Source of the DNA: a virus
Virus record (IMG/VR): IMGVR_UViG_3300036831_000044
Coordinates: 1 to 23,029 of that record
Direction: 5' to 3' (one strand)
Length of the DNA: 23,029 bases
Shown here: positions 2,213 through 18,575 of the stretch, piece after piece
Layout of the letters: each line of letters starts with the position of its first letter
Position numbering within the stretch: the stretch's first letter is position 1
Program-made: the position numbers and the translations under genes
The notes under the pieces: model-generated
The model's database searches: none
Told to the model about the DNA's origin: nothing
The model's input: only the letters and a program-made list of their open reading frames with translations

Positions 2213-3742
2213 ATGACTCAAGTAGCGCAAAATGCACAGGGGAGCGCGGCGGTAGTTTTTTGGAATGAGATGATGAAGAGGCATCCTAAACTTCATGGTT
2301 GGTTGGCTATTGCGGGAGCCGTTTTAGGGTTTTTTCTCAATGGTCATTTCTTGGTTGCCGCTGGCCGCTGGGTCATTCAGGTGAGCGGATATGTGGCAGA
2401 AACTGCGCTCCTGTTTGCGGTTCTCTGGATTAGCGGCACAAGTATTGCCCCCAGCCTGATTGAAATTGTCATGAGCAAAGAGATCATGGCCCATCTGGTA
2501 ATGGTCGCCTTGATTACGTTGGCCCTTATTCCGGAGATCATTCTTGCCAATGCCATCATTAATGCGGTTAAGCATTGGATAACTGTCGGACATGATCGGC
2601 GGCATGTGATGTCTTGGGTTTGGGCGTTCTTGTTCACAATTCCTACTCTCATGTTTTTGGCTCTGACGGCGTATACGTTGAACTCCCTTGGGTCAAATGG
2701 GGGCAATTTTGTACAGGCAAGTACGGACTCGCTCAACTTCCGAATGGATGCAGGATGGATCTATGGATTACTCGAAGTGGTCTATGCTGGAGTACGAAAA
2801 TTGGCCCCACATTTAGCGGTTTTTCCCCAGCAAAAACAGACACAAATACCACCTTCACCTGTCGATTATGAACGGATTATAGCGTCCATTTTGCCTGTCA
2901 TATCAGTCCAAATTACGGCGCAAATGACCGCCATATCTGCATCTCAAATCCAATCATTTGAGTCCCAAATTGCCGCATTAACTGCGTCATTTCAAGCAGC
3001 CAAATCAATGGCAAATGAGCCCGATATGAGTGAGGATATCAATGCTGATATGCAGGTGCAAATGGAGCCCATATCATCCCCCATATCGAACGCAAATGGG
3101 CCATTAACAAGAGCCGATTTGGGGATGATAGAAGGTGTTATGTATGACAAACTTATGGCGGACAAATCAGCGCTAAATGAGTTGCATATGCAATCCCAAA
3201 TGATGCCCATATCCGACTTCGTTATTAGCCTCCAGGGCCGTTTTAGCGCATACGCTAATTATATTAACGAGGGGCGAGTTCTGCGTGTTATGGAGGCCAT
3301 AAATGCCGCATATCTAGTGGCAAATGAGTCCCCAAATGAGCCCGATATGTCCGCCCAAATGAGCCCGATATCCGACGTAAATGATGCCCAAATAGAGATA
3401 GATATGGAGGATGATATGCCTGCAAATATCACTGATATATCGACCGCAAAACCTTCCCAAATGACACGCAAATTGGCGGATATATCAGCCCCAAATGCCT
3501 CGAATATGGGCGCGTCAAATGACGGAAATATGGGCGCTAAAAAAGGGCCATATGCAATTACAAAAGAGGCTGCATCCGAACTCTTAAAATGTCCCATATC
3601 CGAAATTGAGAGAGGGATTTCTGCGGGGCAAATCACCGAATTTGCGAAAGATAAAAGCAAAGTTTTGCGGTCCAGTTTACAGGGATTTGTGCCACAGAAA
3701 CGGGTCCGCAAAACAGGCAAAATGGCGGTAGTGAATAGTTAG
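2213..3742 (+). CDS. Four-span membrane protein with repeat-encoded linker and C-terminal helix-turn-helix
   Basis: ATG 2213 is chosen because GGAGG lies at 2200-2204; TTG 2198 would put the ribosome binding site inside the gene. The 509-residue product has likely membrane segments at about 30-50, 60-80, 94-117 and 133-155. Next comes a low-complexity linker (about 225-447) dominated by Met, Ile, Ser, Pro, Asp and Asn, with motifs such as NEPDMS and QMEPIS. The last ~60 residues contain ITKEAASELLKCPISEIERG and then SAGQI...VLRSSLQGF. This matches the layout of excisionase/MerR-type helix-turn-helix domains: 'T..EAA..L......I.R.I..G.I......' and a final strand and helix. A membrane-tethered DNA-binding protein is therefore inferred. 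Its linker DNA carries the phased A/T array described separately. Membrane topology is fairly sure, the HTH moderately sure, the role unknown. Confidence 0.75.
   Translation: MTQVAQNAQGSAAVVFWNEMMKRHPKLHGWLAIAGAVLGFFLNGHFLVAAGRWVIQVSGYVAETALLFAVLWISGTSIAPSLIEIVMSKEIMAHLVMVALITLALIPEIILANAIINAVKHWITVGHDRRHVMSWVWAFLFTIPTLMFLALTAYTLNSLGSNGGNFVQASTDSLNFRMDAGWIYGLLEVVYAGVRKLAPHLAVFPQQKQTQIPPSPVDYERIIASILPVISVQITAQMTAISASQIQSFESQIAALTASFQAAKSMANEPDMSEDINADMQVQMEPISSPISNANGPLTRADLGMIEGVMYDKLMADKSALNELHMQSQMMPISDFVISLQGRFSAYANYINEGRVLRVMEAINAAYLVANESPNEPDMSAQMSPISDVNDAQIEIDMEDDMPANITDISTAKPSQMTRKLADISAPNASNMGASNDGNMGAKKGPYAITKEAASELLKCPISEIERGISAGQITEFAKDKSKVLRSSLQGFVPQKRVRKTGKMAVVNS
2888..3553. repeat. 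Phased A/T-tetramer array, period about 11.4 bp, inside a coding region
   Basis: Tetramers AAAT, ATAT or ATTT/ATTA, set between GC-rich stretches, recur at nearly constant spacing. First block starts: 2888, 2900, 2910, 2922, 2933, 2946, 2956, 2967, 2977, 2989, 3002, 3013, 3024, 3036, 3048, 3060, 3071, 3083, 3094, 3103, 3117, then weaker TTAT-like words, then 3164, 3175, 3186, 3198, 3209. After a disturbed stretch (about 3226-3298): 3301, 3310, 3322, 3334, 3345, 3357, 3368, 3379, 3390, 3402, 3414, 3424, 3435, 3448, 3459, 3470, 3482, 3493, 3504, 3517, 3528, 3550. Most steps are 10-13 bp. The words fall in all three codon positions. Flanks are often CCC or GC before and G or C after; CCCAAAT alone occurs seven times. 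Confidence 0.8.
3331..3371 (+). repeat. 18-bp tandem direct repeat with 23-bp period, read in two frames
   Basis: The same 18 bases, CCCAAATGAGCCCGATAT, occur at 3331-3348 and 3354-3371. The offset of 23 bp is not a multiple of 3, so the copies are translated in different registers (PNEPDM and QMSPIS). A looser version without the leading CCC is at 3012-3027. This is about two units of the 11.4-bp array and shows duplication at the DNA level. Confidence 0.75.
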
Positions 3743-7200: not shown

Positions 7201-7728
7201 ATGCGTGAAACTCCGAAGGCGGCAGCGGCATTTGAAGAGTATGCTGCAATGGGTCCGTCTCGGAGTTTGCGTAAATTGGCTGAAAAGCACAGCGAAAGCA
7301 CAGCGAAAGCACAACAGATTTCGAGGCAATTGGCGGAATGGTCTTCCGCTCATCGGTGGCAAGAACGGGTTAGGCGGTATGATGCTGATCGCATAGAAGA
7401 GCAACGCGTTAAAAAAGATGCCGCTATCGAAGCAATGAATGAAGTTCAGGCGACACTAGGACAAGAGCGAACATTAAAAGCAATTGAGCAGATGGATGCA
7501 TTGATTGAAGCCCGCAAGTTTGGAAGTCAGGCGACAGTGCAGCTTTTTAAAGTGGCAACCGATCTTGAGCGTGTGGCGCGTGGTGCTCCAACTGAGCATA
7601 TTGAGCAAAGTAATGCTAATAGTGCTGCTGAGTGGAATGCTATTCGTGTCGTGATTATGCAAACGCTCTCAGCATTTCCAGATGCAAGAATAGCCGTCGC
7701 TGAAGCTCTAGCGCAGATGGAGGCTTAA
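7201..7728 (+). CDS. Terminase small subunit-like DNA-binding protein
   Basis: Small terminases recognise the phage packaging site and load the large terminase. The N-terminal 60 residues have the pattern seen in many small terminases of siphophages and mobile elements: a proline/alanine start, then FEEYAAMG..RSLRKLAEK as a helix-turn-helix, then LAEWSSAHRWQERVRRYD. The rest is helical and could form the oligomerisation part. It lies 2 nt ahead of the terminase ATPase gene, the usual place. An 11-bp tandem repeat (about 2.7 copies of AGCACAGCGAA, 7286-7313) encodes HSESTAKAQ in the loop after the first helices and may be a recent slippage. Assignment rests on pattern and position. Confidence 0.7.
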   Translation: MRETPKAAAAFEEYAAMGPSRSLRKLAEKHSESTAKAQQISRQLAEWSSAHRWQERVRRYDADRIEEQRVKKDAAIEAMNEVQATLGQERTLKAIEQMDALIEARKFGSQATVQLFKVATDLERVARGAPTEHIEQSNANSAAEWNAIRVVIMQTLSAFPDARIAVAEALAQMEA

Positions 7729-7729
7729 C

Positions 7730-8476
7730 ATGTTAGCCTCAACTGAATTAGCAATGGCGCTTGATCCGGTTTGCATGTCGCAAGTAGCAGGCCTTACTCC
7801 TGATCCTTGGCAAGCACGATTTCTTAGAAGCCAATCAAAACGTATTCTCGTGAACTGTTCACGGCAAACGGGTAAGAGCACTACTACGGCCACGCTTGCT
7901 GATCATGTTGCCTTCTATGAGCCCGATTCACCTGTCCTCTTGCTTTCTCCTTCGCTCAGGCAAAGTAGCGAACTCTTCCGTAAATGTCTAGAGGTTTATC
8001 GCGCATTGGGGCGGCCTGTACAAGCAGACTCGGAAAGTGCATTGAAACTTGAGCTAGAGAATGGATCTCGCATTATTTCTCTACCAGGTAAAGAGGGAAC
8101 TGTACGCGGTATCTCTAAGGTAAAAGTGCTCATTATTGATGAGGCCAGCCGTGTACCGGATGAATTATACATGGCTGTACGTCCTATGCTTGCTGTTTCA
8201 GGTGGCAAATTGATACTGTTGAGCACTCCATTTGGGACTCGTGGTTTCTTTTGGGAAGCGTGGAAGCACCGTAAAGATTGGGATTATTTTGAAGTACCTG
8301 CTACAGAGTGCCCACGTATCTCCTCTGAATTTTTGGAAGAAGAACGTCAAAATATGGGAGATTTTTGGTTTCAGCAAGAATACATGTGTAAATTTATGGA
8401 TGCTCAATCAGCCGCTTTTCGCTCCGAAGATATAGATAGAATTATTGGGCAACAAGTAGAAACGTGGGCGTTGTGA
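7730..8476 (+). CDS. Terminase large subunit, ATPase domain (separate gene)
   Basis: This is the packaging motor that pumps DNA into the prohead using ATP. GGAGG (7720-7724) precedes ATG 7730. An adenine-binding-type segment (TPDPWQARFL, 23-32) is followed by a Walker A variant, CSRQTGKST (43-51). Then come VLLLSPSLRQSS (69-80), Walker B VLIIDEAS (133-140) and the coupling motif LLSTPFG (163-169). These are the standard motifs of the Terminase_6 ATPase in the usual order. The protein stops after 248 residues, just where the linker to the nuclease domain would begin. TGA 8474-8476 overlaps the ATG of the nuclease gene as TGATG, so reinitiation by the same ribosome is likely. Very confident of the domain. 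Confidence 0.92.
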   Translation: MLASTELAMALDPVCMSQVAGLTPDPWQARFLRSQSKRILVNCSRQTGKSTTTATLADHVAFYEPDSPVLLLSPSLRQSSELFRKCLEVYRALGRPVQADSESALKLELENGSRIISLPGKEGTVRGISKVKVLIIDEASRVPDELYMAVRPMLAVSGGKLILLSTPFGTRGFFWEAWKHRKDWDYFEVPATECPRISSEFLEEERQNMGDFWFQQEYMCKFMDAQSAAFRSEDIDRIIGQQVETWAL

Positions 8477-9177
8477 TGGAAAAGCTTACTCCTGTATGTA
8501 TTGGCGTTGATGTGGGACAAATCCATGATCCCACGGCCATATCAGTTGCAGAAGTGCGACAAATCCATACAGGGAAGTATCGCTATACGTCCGAGCCAGT
8601 TCCCGCACATTTTGATGAGAATCACCAATGGGTACCGCCATTCGATGCTGAGCCTGTTATGGTGAGTGATTATCTTATCCGCAATATCAGGCGGCTACCA
8701 CTTGGTACAAGCTACCCAGATGTTGCTATGCATCTGGCAGAGTTGCTGTGTAATCCGCGTTTTGCCAATCGTGATGTGCGGATGCTAATGGATGTAACGG
8801 GCGTTGGAAGGCCGGTATATGACGATCTTAAAAAAGAGATTGCGCTCCGCAAGGAAGCCAAGCATGTGGCGCTTCGTCCCATCAGCTTTTCTCATGGGGA
8901 AAAATATAATCGCAATACGGGAGTGCTGGGTAAAGCTTATTTAGTAAGCAGGCTGCAATCATTACTTCAAGGCGGACGTGTTCACGCTCCCGATATACCT
9001 GAAGTGCATGCCACGCTGGAAGAGTTGCGCGTGTATGAGATTAAGGTAAGTGACGATGGCAAAGATACGTATGGAGCCTCGATTGGCAAACATGATGATT
9101 TAGCTACGGCATTGGCACTATCTACACTAGAAGATCCCTTCGGAGACAGAATAACTTATAGCAAGCGCGTGTATTAA
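8476..9177 (+). CDS. Terminase large subunit, RNase H-like nuclease domain (separate gene)
   Basis: The nuclease cuts the phage DNA concatemer at the start and end of packaging. ATG 8476 is preferred to GTG 8464 because of the TGATG coupling with the ATPase gene. The 233 residues show the metal-binding acidic residues of the RNase H-like fold: D12 in IGVDVGQ (with DPTAISV after it), D106 in MLMDVTGVG, and D207/D208 in GKHDDLATALAL. In most phages this domain is fused to the ATPase in a single protein of 400-600 residues. Here it is in another frame (-1 relative to the ATPase gene), but both halves are complete and all motifs are kept, which argues against simple decay. Confidence 0.88.
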   Translation: MEKLTPVCIGVDVGQIHDPTAISVAEVRQIHTGKYRYTSEPVPAHFDENHQWVPPFDAEPVMVSDYLIRNIRRLPLGTSYPDVAMHLAELLCNPRFANRDVRMLMDVTGVGRPVYDDLKKEIALRKEAKHVALRPISFSHGEKYNRNTGVLGKAYLVSRLQSLLQGGRVHAPDIPEVHATLEELRVYEIKVSDDGKDTYGASIGKHDDLATALALSTLEDPFGDRITYSKRVY

Positions 9178-9439: not shown

Positions 9440-10915
9440 ATGACACAAATAATGAATGCACCTGCAACCTCACTTGCAACTACCACACAAGCGGGTCCAC
9501 AATACGAGATAACCGACGATGATAAAGCGCGGGTCCAGGCGATAGAGAACGCCTGGAAAGCCTATCATGGGTTGCTTGATCCTCCGCTGAAAAAAATGCC
9601 AAATCAAGCCGACGATAATGTCCTCTCGAATAGATGTCAGCCAATTGTAGACCGAGGGGTAGATTTCTTATTTGGGAAGCCGGTTGAACTGACATTGCCA
9701 GAGGGAACCGCCCAAAATATTATCGATATCTCGAATGAAACGTGGGGCAAGCAAGAGGCACGAATACCGCTCCTGCAAAAATTGGCTATGAGTGGTGCTA
9801 TGTGTGGTCAGGCGTTCCTGCGCATTATGCCAGAACGAAATGGAACCTATAGATTGATCGTTGTTGATCCGAGCACGGTATTTGTCCAGACGGCTCCTCA
9901 AGATTGTGAAACCGTCTTGCTCTATTGTATCCAGTATTCCACCATCGAGACAATTGAAGGCAAGAAGCAAACTGTACAGTACCGGGAAGAAATATCACGT
10001 GTCGATCCTGATGGTGATGGAGACGACGGTGATCCGTTTGCTGATGTTGATGCTTCATGGCAAATACAGCACTGGTCTCGCATTGGTGAGCGTGGCAACT
10101 GGCGTTCAAGTGGTGATCCTATCACATGGGCCTATAACTTCCCTCCACTCTTCTCTTGCCAGAATTTGCCCTACCCTCATTCTTTCTGGGGAATGCCAGA
10201 TATTACAAGCGATCTCATTGGCGTGAATAACTCGCTCAATCTTGTGCTCTCGAATATCAATCGTGTCAACAAATTGTATGGACAGCCTCTCATCTATGCT
10301 ACTGGCGTGGCTGAGAGCGAGGTTGACTTTCGTCCCGGTCGCATTATTGGCCTTCCCCTGACTGAGAGCAAGATTGTGGCTGTCTCGTACACTACCGATC
10401 TTGTATCCGCTCTCCAATTTGCTGATGAATTATGCTCATCAATGTCCGAACAAGCTGGCGTTCCTGCCGAAGCGCTTGGCAAGAATACAAGTCAGATGCC
10501 GCGCGGTGCCGCTTCAGGTATTGCGATTGAACTTCGTTTCATGCCGCTCTTGCAAAAGACAGAGAAGAAACGATGTTTGTATGGAAAACTCATGATCGAT
10601 GTCTCAAAAGCGTTGCTTGTGCTCTCAGGTACGTATTCCGGTGACATTGATATCACACTTGGCTGGCAAGGTGCGCTTCCAGAGGACGATTTACAAAGTG
10701 TGCAGGCGGCTATTGCCAAGAAGACGGTGGGTGTCTCCGAGCAGACACTCTTGGGAGAGATGGGGTACGACGCAGACGAGGAGCAAGAACGCTGTAGGCA
10801 AGAGTATGCTGACGAGTTGCGCAATGCCACTCGCGGCCAGGGATTGCCGCCTGCATCATATACACAACCCGGGCAAGACCCACAAGCAATGCAACAACAA
10901 CCGAGTATGGCATAA
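9440..10915 (+). CDS. Portal protein, SPP1 gp6-like
   Basis: The portal is the 12-fold ring at one capsid vertex through which DNA enters and leaves. AGAGGTGA (9428-9435) precedes ATG 9440. The 491 residues have the family's features: an N-terminal region with NRCQPIVDRGVDFLFGKPVEL, a clip/stem region with SFWGMPDITSDLIGVNNSLN followed by LSNINRVNKLYGQP, and a C-terminal helix with SSMSEQAGVPAEALGKN...PRGAASGIAI. That last pattern is characteristic of Phage_prot_Gp6 portals. An acidic insertion (DPDGDGDDGDPFADVD, about residues 190-205) lies in the wing region. The last 30 residues are Gln/Pro-rich. Size is normal for the family. Confidence 0.9.
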   Translation: MTQIMNAPATSLATTTQAGPQYEITDDDKARVQAIENAWKAYHGLLDPPLKKMPNQADDNVLSNRCQPIVDRGVDFLFGKPVELTLPEGTAQNIIDISNETWGKQEARIPLLQKLAMSGAMCGQAFLRIMPERNGTYRLIVVDPSTVFVQTAPQDCETVLLYCIQYSTIETIEGKKQTVQYREEISRVDPDGDGDDGDPFADVDASWQIQHWSRIGERGNWRSSGDPITWAYNFPPLFSCQNLPYPHSFWGMPDITSDLIGVNNSLNLVLSNINRVNKLYGQPLIYATGVAESEVDFRPGRIIGLPLTESKIVAVSYTTDLVSALQFADELCSSMSEQAGVPAEALGKNTSQMPRGAASGIAIELRFMPLLQKTEKKRCLYGKLMIDVSKALLVLSGTYSGDIDITLGWQGALPEDDLQSVQAAIAKKTVGVSEQTLLGEMGYDADEEQERCRQEYADELRNATRGQGLPPASYTQPGQDPQAMQQQPSMA

Positions 10916-12160: not shown

Positions 12161-13450
12161 ATGGCACAATTAGCACAAGATACGTTTACGCGTGCCAATC
12201 AGTCAGGCTTTGGCACGTCTAGCGATGGAAATACATGGTCTACAGCGTCGGGCTCGTCTGTACAATCAATTGCAAGTAACGAAGGTCATTGTACAACGTG
12301 TAATTCTGCCACTTTTGTCAAGCTTGGCTCTGGCACTAGCGCTAATGCCGAGGGTCTTGTACGACTTCGGGCAAGTGACACAAATGCTACAAGCTCTGGT
12401 ATTGTGCTTAGAGCAACTGGGAGCACTACATTCTATAGAGCACGTTTAAGTGCGAATAGTTCATCTGTTGGTATTGCTCTTATCAAAGTTATTTCGGGCA
12501 CGTCTACCAATCTGTTCACGGCTTCTTTTACACAAACTGCGAGTACGTACTACTGGCTTCGCTTCCGTTGCGTGGGTACAAGCCTGTTTGCTAAAGTGTG
12601 GGCTGATGGTAACGCCGAACCAGGTTCCTGGACAATAAGTGGTACCGACTCTAGTATTTCCAGTGCAGGCAATTATGGAATACACACGAACAGCAATAGC
12701 ACGAGCACGACATGGGACTTTGATAATTTTACTGTAACTGATGGAGTTGCCTATCATGATGCAACTGCTAGATTTCGTTTGCTTGCGACTAAGACGGTTG
12801 ACGCCATCTTCCGCTTTGGCTTGCAATCCGTAACGCAATATAAGGATACAATTGGACGTTTCGGCTTGCAAGCCGCAGCATCTCAAGTTCTCCTCAATGC
12901 CATCGCAAGATTTCGTTTACAATCCGGCCAAGTCTACAAAGACCTGCTTTCACGTTTTCGGTTGCAATCTGGACAGATCTTCAAGGATGCCATTGCAAGA
13001 TTTCGACAGCAGTCGGGTGTAATTTATCATGATGCTTTGAGTCGGTTTCGCTTGCAGTCAGGTACCATGTATCATGACGCGGTTGCACGTTTCCGACAGC
13101 AGTCAGGAACAACGTATAAGAATGCGCTGGCAAGGTTCCGACTCCAATCGGGCGTTATCCCTCTTAGTGCATTGGCAAGGTTTCGCTTGCAGTCAGGAAT
13201 AGTTTATCATGATGTGACTGGGCGGCTTCGGTTGCAATCCGGCCAGGTCTACCACATGGTAATAGGTCGTTTTGGCCTAACTACGTCATCGATGCCATTA
13301 CTCAATATGCAGGCGAGATTCGGGCTTGTGGCTGGAACTAGGGCAACTATCACGCTTATTGCATCGAGAGGATCAGTCTTATTAGACGCGCCGAGAGGAT
13401 CAGTTACACTTGCAGGGGCAAGAGATACTATCACATTGGAGGCTCCATGA
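12161..13450 (+). CDS. Fibre-like protein: lectin-type N-terminal domain and 15-residue tandem repeats
   Basis: The first ~195 residues look like a LamG/concanavalin-type beta-sandwich: DTFTRANQSGFGTSSDGNTW near the start, YWLRFRCVG..LFAKVWADG in the middle and TTWDFDNFTVTDG at the end. Such domains bind sugars or form adhesin heads. Residues about 200-385 are tandem repeats of 15 residues of the type RFRLQSGQVYKDLLS, with R1, F2, R3, Q5, S6 and G7 best kept. About a dozen copies are seen, some diverged. The last ~40 residues have short RGSV/RDTITL strand repeats. A rigid trimeric fibre or tail spike with repeats as shaft is inferred. The ATGA overlap with the BppU-like gene couples their synthesis. 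Confidence 0.75.
   Translation: MAQLAQDTFTRANQSGFGTSSDGNTWSTASGSSVQSIASNEGHCTTCNSATFVKLGSGTSANAEGLVRLRASDTNATSSGIVLRATGSTTFYRARLSANSSSVGIALIKVISGTSTNLFTASFTQTASTYYWLRFRCVGTSLFAKVWADGNAEPGSWTISGTDSSISSAGNYGIHTNSNSTSTTWDFDNFTVTDGVAYHDATARFRLLATKTVDAIFRFGLQSVTQYKDTIGRFGLQAAASQVLLNAIARFRLQSGQVYKDLLSRFRLQSGQIFKDAIARFRQQSGVIYHDALSRFRLQSGTMYHDAVARFRQQSGTTYKNALARFRLQSGVIPLSALARFRLQSGIVYHDVTGRLRLQSGQVYHMVIGRFGLTTSSMPLLNMQARFGLVAGTRATITLIASRGSVLLDAPRGSVTLAGARDTITLEAP
12908..13270 (+). repeat. 45-bp tandem coding repeats (15-aa units)
   Basis: Units start at about 12908, 12953, 12998, 13043, 13088, 13133, 13178 and 13223, each opening with codons for RFR/RLR and QSG. Less regular copies lie upstream (from about 12770). 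Some units are nearly identical at the DNA level, for example around CAATCCGGCCA at 12920 and 13235. The period of 45 bp is in frame, so copy number can change without breaking the gene. Confidence 0.8.
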
Positions 13451-17564: not shown

Positions 17565-18575
17565 ATGGCAATCGCTACAAACTCTATGACATTGGCGGAT
17601 TATGCTTTAAATAGCAATTCTCCAGTGGTCCGGGGGATCACCTATAGTCTGATCGATAATGGATCAGTCATCCAGGATATCCCGCTCGTCACTCAAAAAA
17701 GCCTTGTCGCTAACGGGGTGCGTTTCGAGGGCAATCTCCCAACCGTCAACTGGGCACAAATCAACGCCGAGGGTGTGACCACGAAGGGCGTGCCGACCGC
17801 ATATAGCGAACAGGTTTACCTCATCCGCAACTACATTGACGTTGATTACTTGTTCGTCCAAGATGTCAATGCCATTGTCGATCCGAGGGCCGCGCAAGTT
17901 GGCGCGTATATGAAATCTCTCACCTATGACTTCAACTACAAATTCATTAACAACGATCACATTACTGGCGACGCAAACGCGCCGGTCGGACTGAAGTATC
18001 GTATCGCAAACGGTGGAACCTTCGGCGTTCGTCCTGAGAACCTCATTGATGGTGGTGGTGTCGATCTCACTCAAGCGGCGGCCACTCAGGCCACAGCCAA
18101 CAAGTTTATCGAACTCCTTGATCAGCTCTTGTGGTCCGTGAACTCTCCCGAGGGGACTGGCGTTGTGCTGTACATGAATGAAGTCATGAAACGTCGGTTT
18201 GCCTTCGTGGTCCGTCTCATGGGCACATCGGGCGGTTTTACCACGATGCAGGATCAGTTCAACCGCACGATCCAAATGTACAAAGGTGCGATTATCCGTG
18301 ATATCGGGTACAAGCAGGATCAGACCACGCGCATTATCACCAATACCGAACTTGCCACAGGGCTAGCCACAACTGGATCAACGTATACGAGTATCTATGC
18401 CGTGAATTATGGAACTGACTACTTCTTTGGCTGGCAGTTCAATGAACCGGTATTCGAGGATCTTGGTTTGATAAATAATGGAGTGATCTATAGGACAAAT
18501 ATCAACTGGGCCGTTGGATTACTCAATTCATCGACAAGATCCATTGCAAGATTATACGATATTAAGATGAGTTAG
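17565..18575 (+). CDS. Major capsid protein, HK97 fold
   Basis: ATG 17565 follows AGGAG at 8 nt. The 336-residue protein comes directly after the scaffold gene, as major capsid genes do. The N-terminal part MTLADYALNSNSPVVRGI and IQDIPLVTQKSLVANG fit the N-arm and entry to the A-domain of HK97-fold capsids of the type 'major capsid protein' in scaffold-using siphophages. Later segments (VEVN-like YLIRNYIDVDYLFVQD, then the E-loop and the P-domain helix NKFIELLDQLLW) fit too. The codons are richer in C-ending forms (ATC, CTC, ACC) than in the neighbouring small genes, as in highly expressed genes. Assignment from size, order and pattern; no single diagnostic residue. Confidence 0.82.
   Translation: MAIATNSMTLADYALNSNSPVVRGITYSLIDNGSVIQDIPLVTQKSLVANGVRFEGNLPTVNWAQINAEGVTTKGVPTAYSEQVYLIRNYIDVDYLFVQDVNAIVDPRAAQVGAYMKSLTYDFNYKFINNDHITGDANAPVGLKYRIANGGTFGVRPENLIDGGGVDLTQAAATQATANKFIELLDQLLWSVNSPEGTGVVLYMNEVMKRRFAFVVRLMGTSGGFTTMQDQFNRTIQMYKGAIIRDIGYKQDQTTRIITNTELATGLATTGSTYTSIYAVNYGTDYFFGWQFNEPVFEDLGLINNGVIYRTNINWAVGLLNSSTRSIARLYDIKMS

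Follow-up and report, generated by a model that had tools for sequence, protein, structure and literature searches.

Does a long, regular row of short A/T words inside a phage gene belong to the encoded protein or to the DNA itself, and if to the DNA, what might it do there? The row lies in a virus record that is a tailed-phage fragment of 23,029 bases, the whole of which is called the window here. If the row does belong to the DNA, two codes would be superimposed, one for a protein tail and one for a rigid DNA lattice of non-integer period that shapes residues and synonymous codons alike. Strong periodicity of the curvature type is reported to be generally absent from phages (PMC3431218), so a lattice of 0.8–0.9 kb would be a strong exception.

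The fragment and the array-bearing gene

Matches to a family library placed the terminase small subunit at 7201, the large subunit at 7730–8476 and 8464–9177, the portal at 9440 and the major head protein at 17565. The terminase is 48–49% identical to those of Thermus and Meiothermus phages and up to 67–77% identical to those of IMG/VR viral contigs. Its large subunit is split into two overlapping ORFs, with ATPase and RNaseH-like domains; a related viral contig (L008) likewise has it in two ORFs. The window also opens within a GIY-YIG endonuclease-like ORF (2–496, truncated by the window start), and at 12161–13450 it encodes a protein with about ten degenerate repeats of the ARFRLQSGxxYHDA type, 17–19 residues each.

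The array-bearing gene (2213–3742, plus strand, from the ORF list) is preceded by a GGAGG ribosome-binding-like site and encodes 509 amino acids. The N-terminal third of the product is hydrophobic, with presumed membrane helices at residues ∼15–170; a long hydrophilic tail follows, whose last ∼65 residues are net-basic. The array occupies the 3′ half of the gene and is coextensive with the part encoding this tail. The product had no PHROG, Pfam or NCBIfam match, and family and profile searches matched its C-terminus to no known DNA-binding family. A Xis/HTH_17 identity for the C-terminus looked plausible by eye and failed the profile tests: the HTH_17 profile had no match at E ≤ 10 in the window or in the C-terminus of the gene, and a custom HTH_17 profile scored the C-terminus no better than its shuffles. 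Structure models, which were low-confidence and from single sequences and were given no weight, had a helical N-terminus and a C-terminus with no structural match.

Homologues of the gene were found neither in viral contigs, phage records and the loci of relatives, nor in 297 genomes of one phylum, which was picked through distant terminase matches and may not be that of the host. Two neighbouring genes put through the same four collections also had no relatives, and the phages related by terminase do not have the array. In two of the relatives (L006:1292–1435 and ∼L009:6298–6429) an integrase, an HTH_17 protein and a four-helix, long-tailed membrane protein lie upstream of the terminase. The array gene may be an analogue of that membrane protein.

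An 11.4-bp lattice of A/T words

A/T words recur with a period of 11.40 bp through a core at 2811–3560 of ∼65 lattice positions, as seen in spectra, phase coherence, in-phase flanks and a third-position test. The original prediction of regularly spaced A/T words in two blocks was correct, with a spacing of 11–12 bp (mean 11.4 bp) and 56 A/T runs of at least 4 in 2881–3560, and the signal proved stronger than first claimed. Over 2888–3553 the A/T-tetramer track had a spectral power of 49.7 at 11.4 bp, against at most about 20 for 660-bp stretches of the same window clear of the array; the remainder of the window has no 11.4-bp peak. Strict words of the form [CG]A[AT]AT[CG] number 31 in 2870–3730, against 2.0 expected from their density elsewhere in the window. 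A/T is in phase along the lattice and G/C in antiphase.

The array does fill 2888–3553, the extent first given, but this is too short. Followed in 120-bp steps, the phase is constant within ∼1.6 bp from ∼2740 to ∼3740, and the signal fades past the stop codon. We take the lattice to be firm from about 2740/2811 to 3560 and weak to about 3740, for a total of roughly 60–80 short A/T words over ∼0.8–0.9 kb.

Block 1 (2888–3226), with words such as CAAATG, CATATC and GATATG, has 29 runs with a best period of 11.50 bp (R 0.85). Block 2 (3299–3553), the most regular part, has 25 runs with a best period of 11.39 bp (R 0.885). From the last regular word of block 1 to the first of block 2 is ∼8 lattice periods (91 bp), and the phases at 11.4 bp are nearly equal on the two sides, −3.11 rad in block 1 and −2.82 rad in block 2, so the blocks are in register. 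The gap between them (3227–3298) contains a perfect 6-bp inverted repeat, TTAGCG-CATA-CGCTAA (3243–3258), which could be due to chance, and a 12-bp A/T-only run, TAATTATATTAA (3256–3267), which is among the four longest such runs in the window and is a candidate unwinding element. The pair is suggestive, although chance could account for both. Beyond block 2 a weak in-phase tail (3556–3739) reaches the stop codon, with a power of 15.0, or 3.8 when projected on the core phase.

The period is carried by synonymous positions

As had been predicted, the words begin in all three codon positions. Codon shuffling, the control proposed with the original prediction, gave a mixed result: only 14 of 2000 shuffles reached the observed power of 49.7, but the shuffles kept the 11.4-bp peak at a mean of 36.6. 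Synonymous shuffling of total A/T power is a weak test, because the codons of Met, Ile, Asn, Asp and Gln force A/T. Sharper measures gave a clearer answer. The 31 strict words compare with 15.7 ± 2.6 upon synonymous shuffling, and none of 2000 shuffles reached the observed count. When the amino-acid expectation was removed, third-position A/T still peaked at 11.4 bp and in the phase of the lattice (0 of 5000). This third-position signal was significant separately in the upstream flank at 2740–2888 (p 0.0018), in block 1 (p 0.006) and in block 2 (p 0.0003); that of the 3′ tail (p 0.12) was not significant by itself. Applied to 13 further genes of the window, the same test gave no significant result.

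Individual codons show the same preference. Ile before TC is encoded by ATA in 8 of 8 cases, compared with 4 of 12 elsewhere; Gln before AT is always CAA (9 of 9), and Asp before AT or TT is GAT in 9 of 10. Codon choice thus tracks the words.

Fixed positions, word choice and DNA shape

Phase coherence along the array is 0.805; shuffling the gaps lowers it to 0.51, and none of 2000 shuffles matched the array. Adjacent gaps have an autocorrelation of −0.50, as independent jitter around fixed positions would give. Together these indicate a fixed lattice, since placement of each word relative to its neighbour would lose phase. The spacers are not copies of one another: similarity is 0.35 for adjacent and 0.351 for distant spacers, with 0.369 expected from composition, which argues against an origin in recent tandem duplication.

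The words themselves are selective. AWAT accounts for 31 of 44 flanked tetramers in the array and for 52 of 375 elsewhere (p 6.5e-15). ATAT, with its TpA step, is as common as AAAT, and G/C-flanked AATT does not occur in the array. The dominance of AWAT and the absence of AATT argue against selection for A-tract curvature; bent DNA of the A-tract type is phased, free of TpA and set to the natural helical repeat, and the array does not have this make-up.

Bending was estimated with a dinucleotide wedge model. The predicted local bend is 21 degrees per 21 bp, compared with 14.1 ± 1.2 elsewhere. At 10.5 bp/turn there is no excess over a longer distance (32 vs 35 ± 6 degrees per 120 bp), while for DNA underwound to 11.4 bp/turn the bend accumulates to 91 degrees per 120 bp. 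Accumulation solely at 11.4 bp/turn suggests that the sequence is suited to a helix that is underwound, whether by a bound protein or otherwise.

Explanations in the peptide, in duplication or in DNA shape

The period equals 3.8 codons and much of the peak survives synonymous shuffling, as would be expected if the tail were amphipathic or a coiled coil, repeating every 3.8 residues and encoded by A/T-rich codons. Hydrophobicity, however, is not periodic at 3.8 residues (power 1.0), since Ile, Met, Leu and Phe are in phase with Asn and Lys; 13 prolines occur as well, and synonymous positions suffice to carry the phase. A cause at the protein level is already contradicted by these results and is most improbable, and the original prediction was right both to dismiss a repeated peptide and to regard a helical protein with a hydrophobic repeat as a poor fit. 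The periodic quantity is A/T, not residue chemistry, and amino acids fail as an explanation. Hardly any more room is left for a relic of tandem duplication, from a unit of 11–12 bp or 23 bp. TRF does find two short arrays within it, of 23 and 24 bp; against this, adjacent spacers are as dissimilar as distant ones, and with a renewal process neither a kept phase nor anticorrelated gaps would be expected. Better placed than these two, although still quite unlikely, is an intrinsic signal of DNA shape or supercoiling that needs no dedicated protein, whether curvature, plectoneme pinning or an extreme local form of the ∼11-bp A/T periodicity that is frequent in bacterial chromosomes. The raised local bend speaks for such a signal. 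The frequent ATAT, the absent AATT, the failure of the bend to accumulate at natural twist, the confinement of the 11.4-bp peak to the array and the general lack of strong curvature periodicity in phages speak against it, and the simple intrinsic curvature first suggested for the array was not upheld, except in the case of DNA underwound to 11.4 bp/turn.

Word arrays in other viral contigs

A scan of viral contigs for the word recurring at intervals of 10–13 bp gave at least 120 loci. AWAT words were its seed, so its yield of CAAATG iterons is partly built in, and it shows the usual nature of such arrays rather than the identity of this one. Among the matches listed, most are CAAATG/CAAATC iterons, many of them within phage replication-initiator genes. 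Replication-initiation genes make up 47 of the 67 in-gene matches listed and 3 of their 13 protein clusters (DnaD-like helicase loader, 37; replication initiation, 9; replisome organiser, 1); the remaining in-gene clusters among these matches include terminase and unassigned ORFs. Another 53 of the matches listed are outside ORFs, many of them AAATGC-type 11-bp iterons adjoining A/T-rich DNA, and 31 loci of this listed set outside ORFs have one flanking protein family in common. Stricter scans for five words gave ten loci, including three (L223, L224 and L225) with genes that match primosomal or O-like initiation families.

Within the initiator genes CAAATG at 11 bp crosses all three frames where the protein is linker-like (for example, in L010, L019 and L113). 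The iterons in these genes, of the DnaD-like loader, replisome-organiser and primosomal types, thus share with the array the word CAAATG, a spacing of ∼11 bp and the use of all frames. They differ in regularity and copying. The comparison arrays mostly have 4–6 copies, with a gap of exactly 11 bp in 408 of 445 cases and a spacer identity of 77%, in contrast to the 11.4-bp period, 35% spacer identity and mixed AAAT and ATAT words found here. Weak peaks at 11.2–11.5 bp in four related loci (L006, L007, L009 and L160) were within background. Scanning for word lattices is a cheap way of finding candidate phage replication origins in unannotated contigs.

A candidate loading array for a nucleoprotein complex

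Our preferred reading, offered tentatively, is that the array serves as an in-gene loading platform for a helical nucleoprotein complex, and most probably as an element of the replication-origin type. Selection on the DNA element would act at the nucleotide level, and the protein tail would be flexible enough to accommodate it. Many weak and more or less equivalent [CG]A[AT]AT[CG] sites would be lined up on an 11.4-bp ruler, and a multimeric protein would make one contact with each of them, turn after turn along a slightly underwound helix, so that a helical filament or wrap could assemble across about 0.8–0.9 kb. Replication initiation would be its likeliest use, with two blocks of sites flanking a gap that contains an A/T-only run. 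Candidate binders are the basic tail of the gene's own product or an initiator encoded beyond the fragment. The original prediction had proposed a multi-site protein platform hidden in a gene; a site array at the level of DNA, independent of the peptide, is present, and from its geometry we infer that a protein binds it.

The closest natural parallels found are origin iterons inside phage initiator genes. Lambdoid origins lie in the middle of gene O, where extra iterons just add residues to the protein (PMC7466680). Like the lambda O origin, the array is multi-site DNA that is translated through, and its sites are about one helical turn apart and in all frames; for the A/T-rich DNA beside the lambda iterons, the A/T-only run in the gap is a candidate counterpart. 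Unlike the lambdoid origins, which have 4–6 conserved iterons in an initiator gene, it has ∼65 degenerate positions, and its gene cannot be recognised as that of an initiator, the 509-aa product having no initiator match; nor is it made of direct repeats of a conserved unit, since words are kept and spacers are at the level of composition. No replication gene was recognised among the fragment genes scanned, phrog_186 is absent from the window, and there is no DnaA box near the array, no switch of GC skew at it and no Rfam match. The missing initiator, DnaA box and skew switch count against the origin reading, as do the 11/12 spacing, the mixed words, the unconserved spacers and the terminase relatives that have no array.

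We rank this origin-type array first, ahead of p6-like wrapping and then of membrane anchoring or partition. That the array signals wrapping by a histone-like protein, of the phage or of its host, is unlikely, but the geometry fits such a role. Protein p6 of phi29 touches the DNA at 12-bp intervals (11-bp in GA-1) and winds it into a right-handed superhelix (PMC10899789), reading a pattern of bendability rather than a sequence, with A/T minor-groove contacts and restrained supercoils (PMC10899789; PMC4974454). These two contact spacings bracket 11.4 bp, and the lattice does present bendable A/T patches every 11–12 bp, with G/C in antiphase and a predicted path that is strongly and persistently curved at 11.4 bp/turn only. 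The p6 recognition regions, however, are near genome ends and tens of bp long, unlike an array of ∼0.8–0.9 kb; AWAT dominance and the absence of AATT make the words more specific than bendability requires; no p6-like gene was recognised among the genes scanned in this fragmentary record; and the terminase, portal and capsid genes are not phi29-like. Slightly less likely again is an array for membrane anchoring or partition, in which the product would bind its own gene or a ParR-like protein would use the array as a centromere. In its favour are the membrane part and basic C-terminus of the product, the coextensive array and tail, the two in-register blocks with a gap and the membrane proteins that organise replication in phi29 (PMC4974454). 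On the other side, the C-terminus has no detectable DNA-binding family and its low-confidence model no structural match, and the genes scanned in the fragment, neighbours included, gave no ParM/ParR-like match. A centromere with a comparable spacing, parC of plasmid R1, has 11-bp iterons in two blocks and is intergenic and short. It resembles the array in its ∼11-bp spacing and two blocks; the array, by contrast, is in a gene and has no recognised partition genes in the fragment.

Filaments of winged-helix RDF/Xis-type proteins offer a geometry that would fit the preferred loading array, each turn of the DNA holding one protomer along a series of weak sites; Apl has direct repeats at 10–11 bp, and BldC and RdfS use indirect readout (PMC7498355, PMC11963761). 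An HTH_17 domain was looked for and not found in the window or in the C-terminus of the array gene. A bolder version of the loading array seems rather unlikely to us: the non-repeat lattice of 0.8–0.9 kb, laid over the codons, would act somewhat like a nucleosome signal for DNA underwound to 11.4 bp/turn and would nucleate a superhelix through an undescribed protein family, in the service of an origin, of anchoring or of compaction. The lattice is a ready test system for a helical DNA–protein assembly specified through spacing instead of a conserved repeat.

Other periodic loci

Several other loci came to notice. A 12.0-bp A/T period at L132:9303–9845, in a related phage, was considered as a DNA lattice and rejected, being an in-frame peptide repeat (NYxxDYxxVFS). 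In one phage family (L012, L067, L070, L084, L091, L117 and L120) a large ORF shows A/T with an 11.0-bp period at its 3′ end, and runs of CATTTG/CAAATG words adjoin this stretch. In an unrelated phage (L231:1815–2157; also L226 and L230) AAATGAAC occurs 14 times without change, in every reading frame, across small ORFs that overlap one another, at spacings of mostly 11, 13, 23–24 and 36; this is a further array of DNA words that spans several frames. Lastly, the first 141 bases of another contig (L222:1–141) form a 12-bp tandem array of about eleven copies of CCCACATATGGA.
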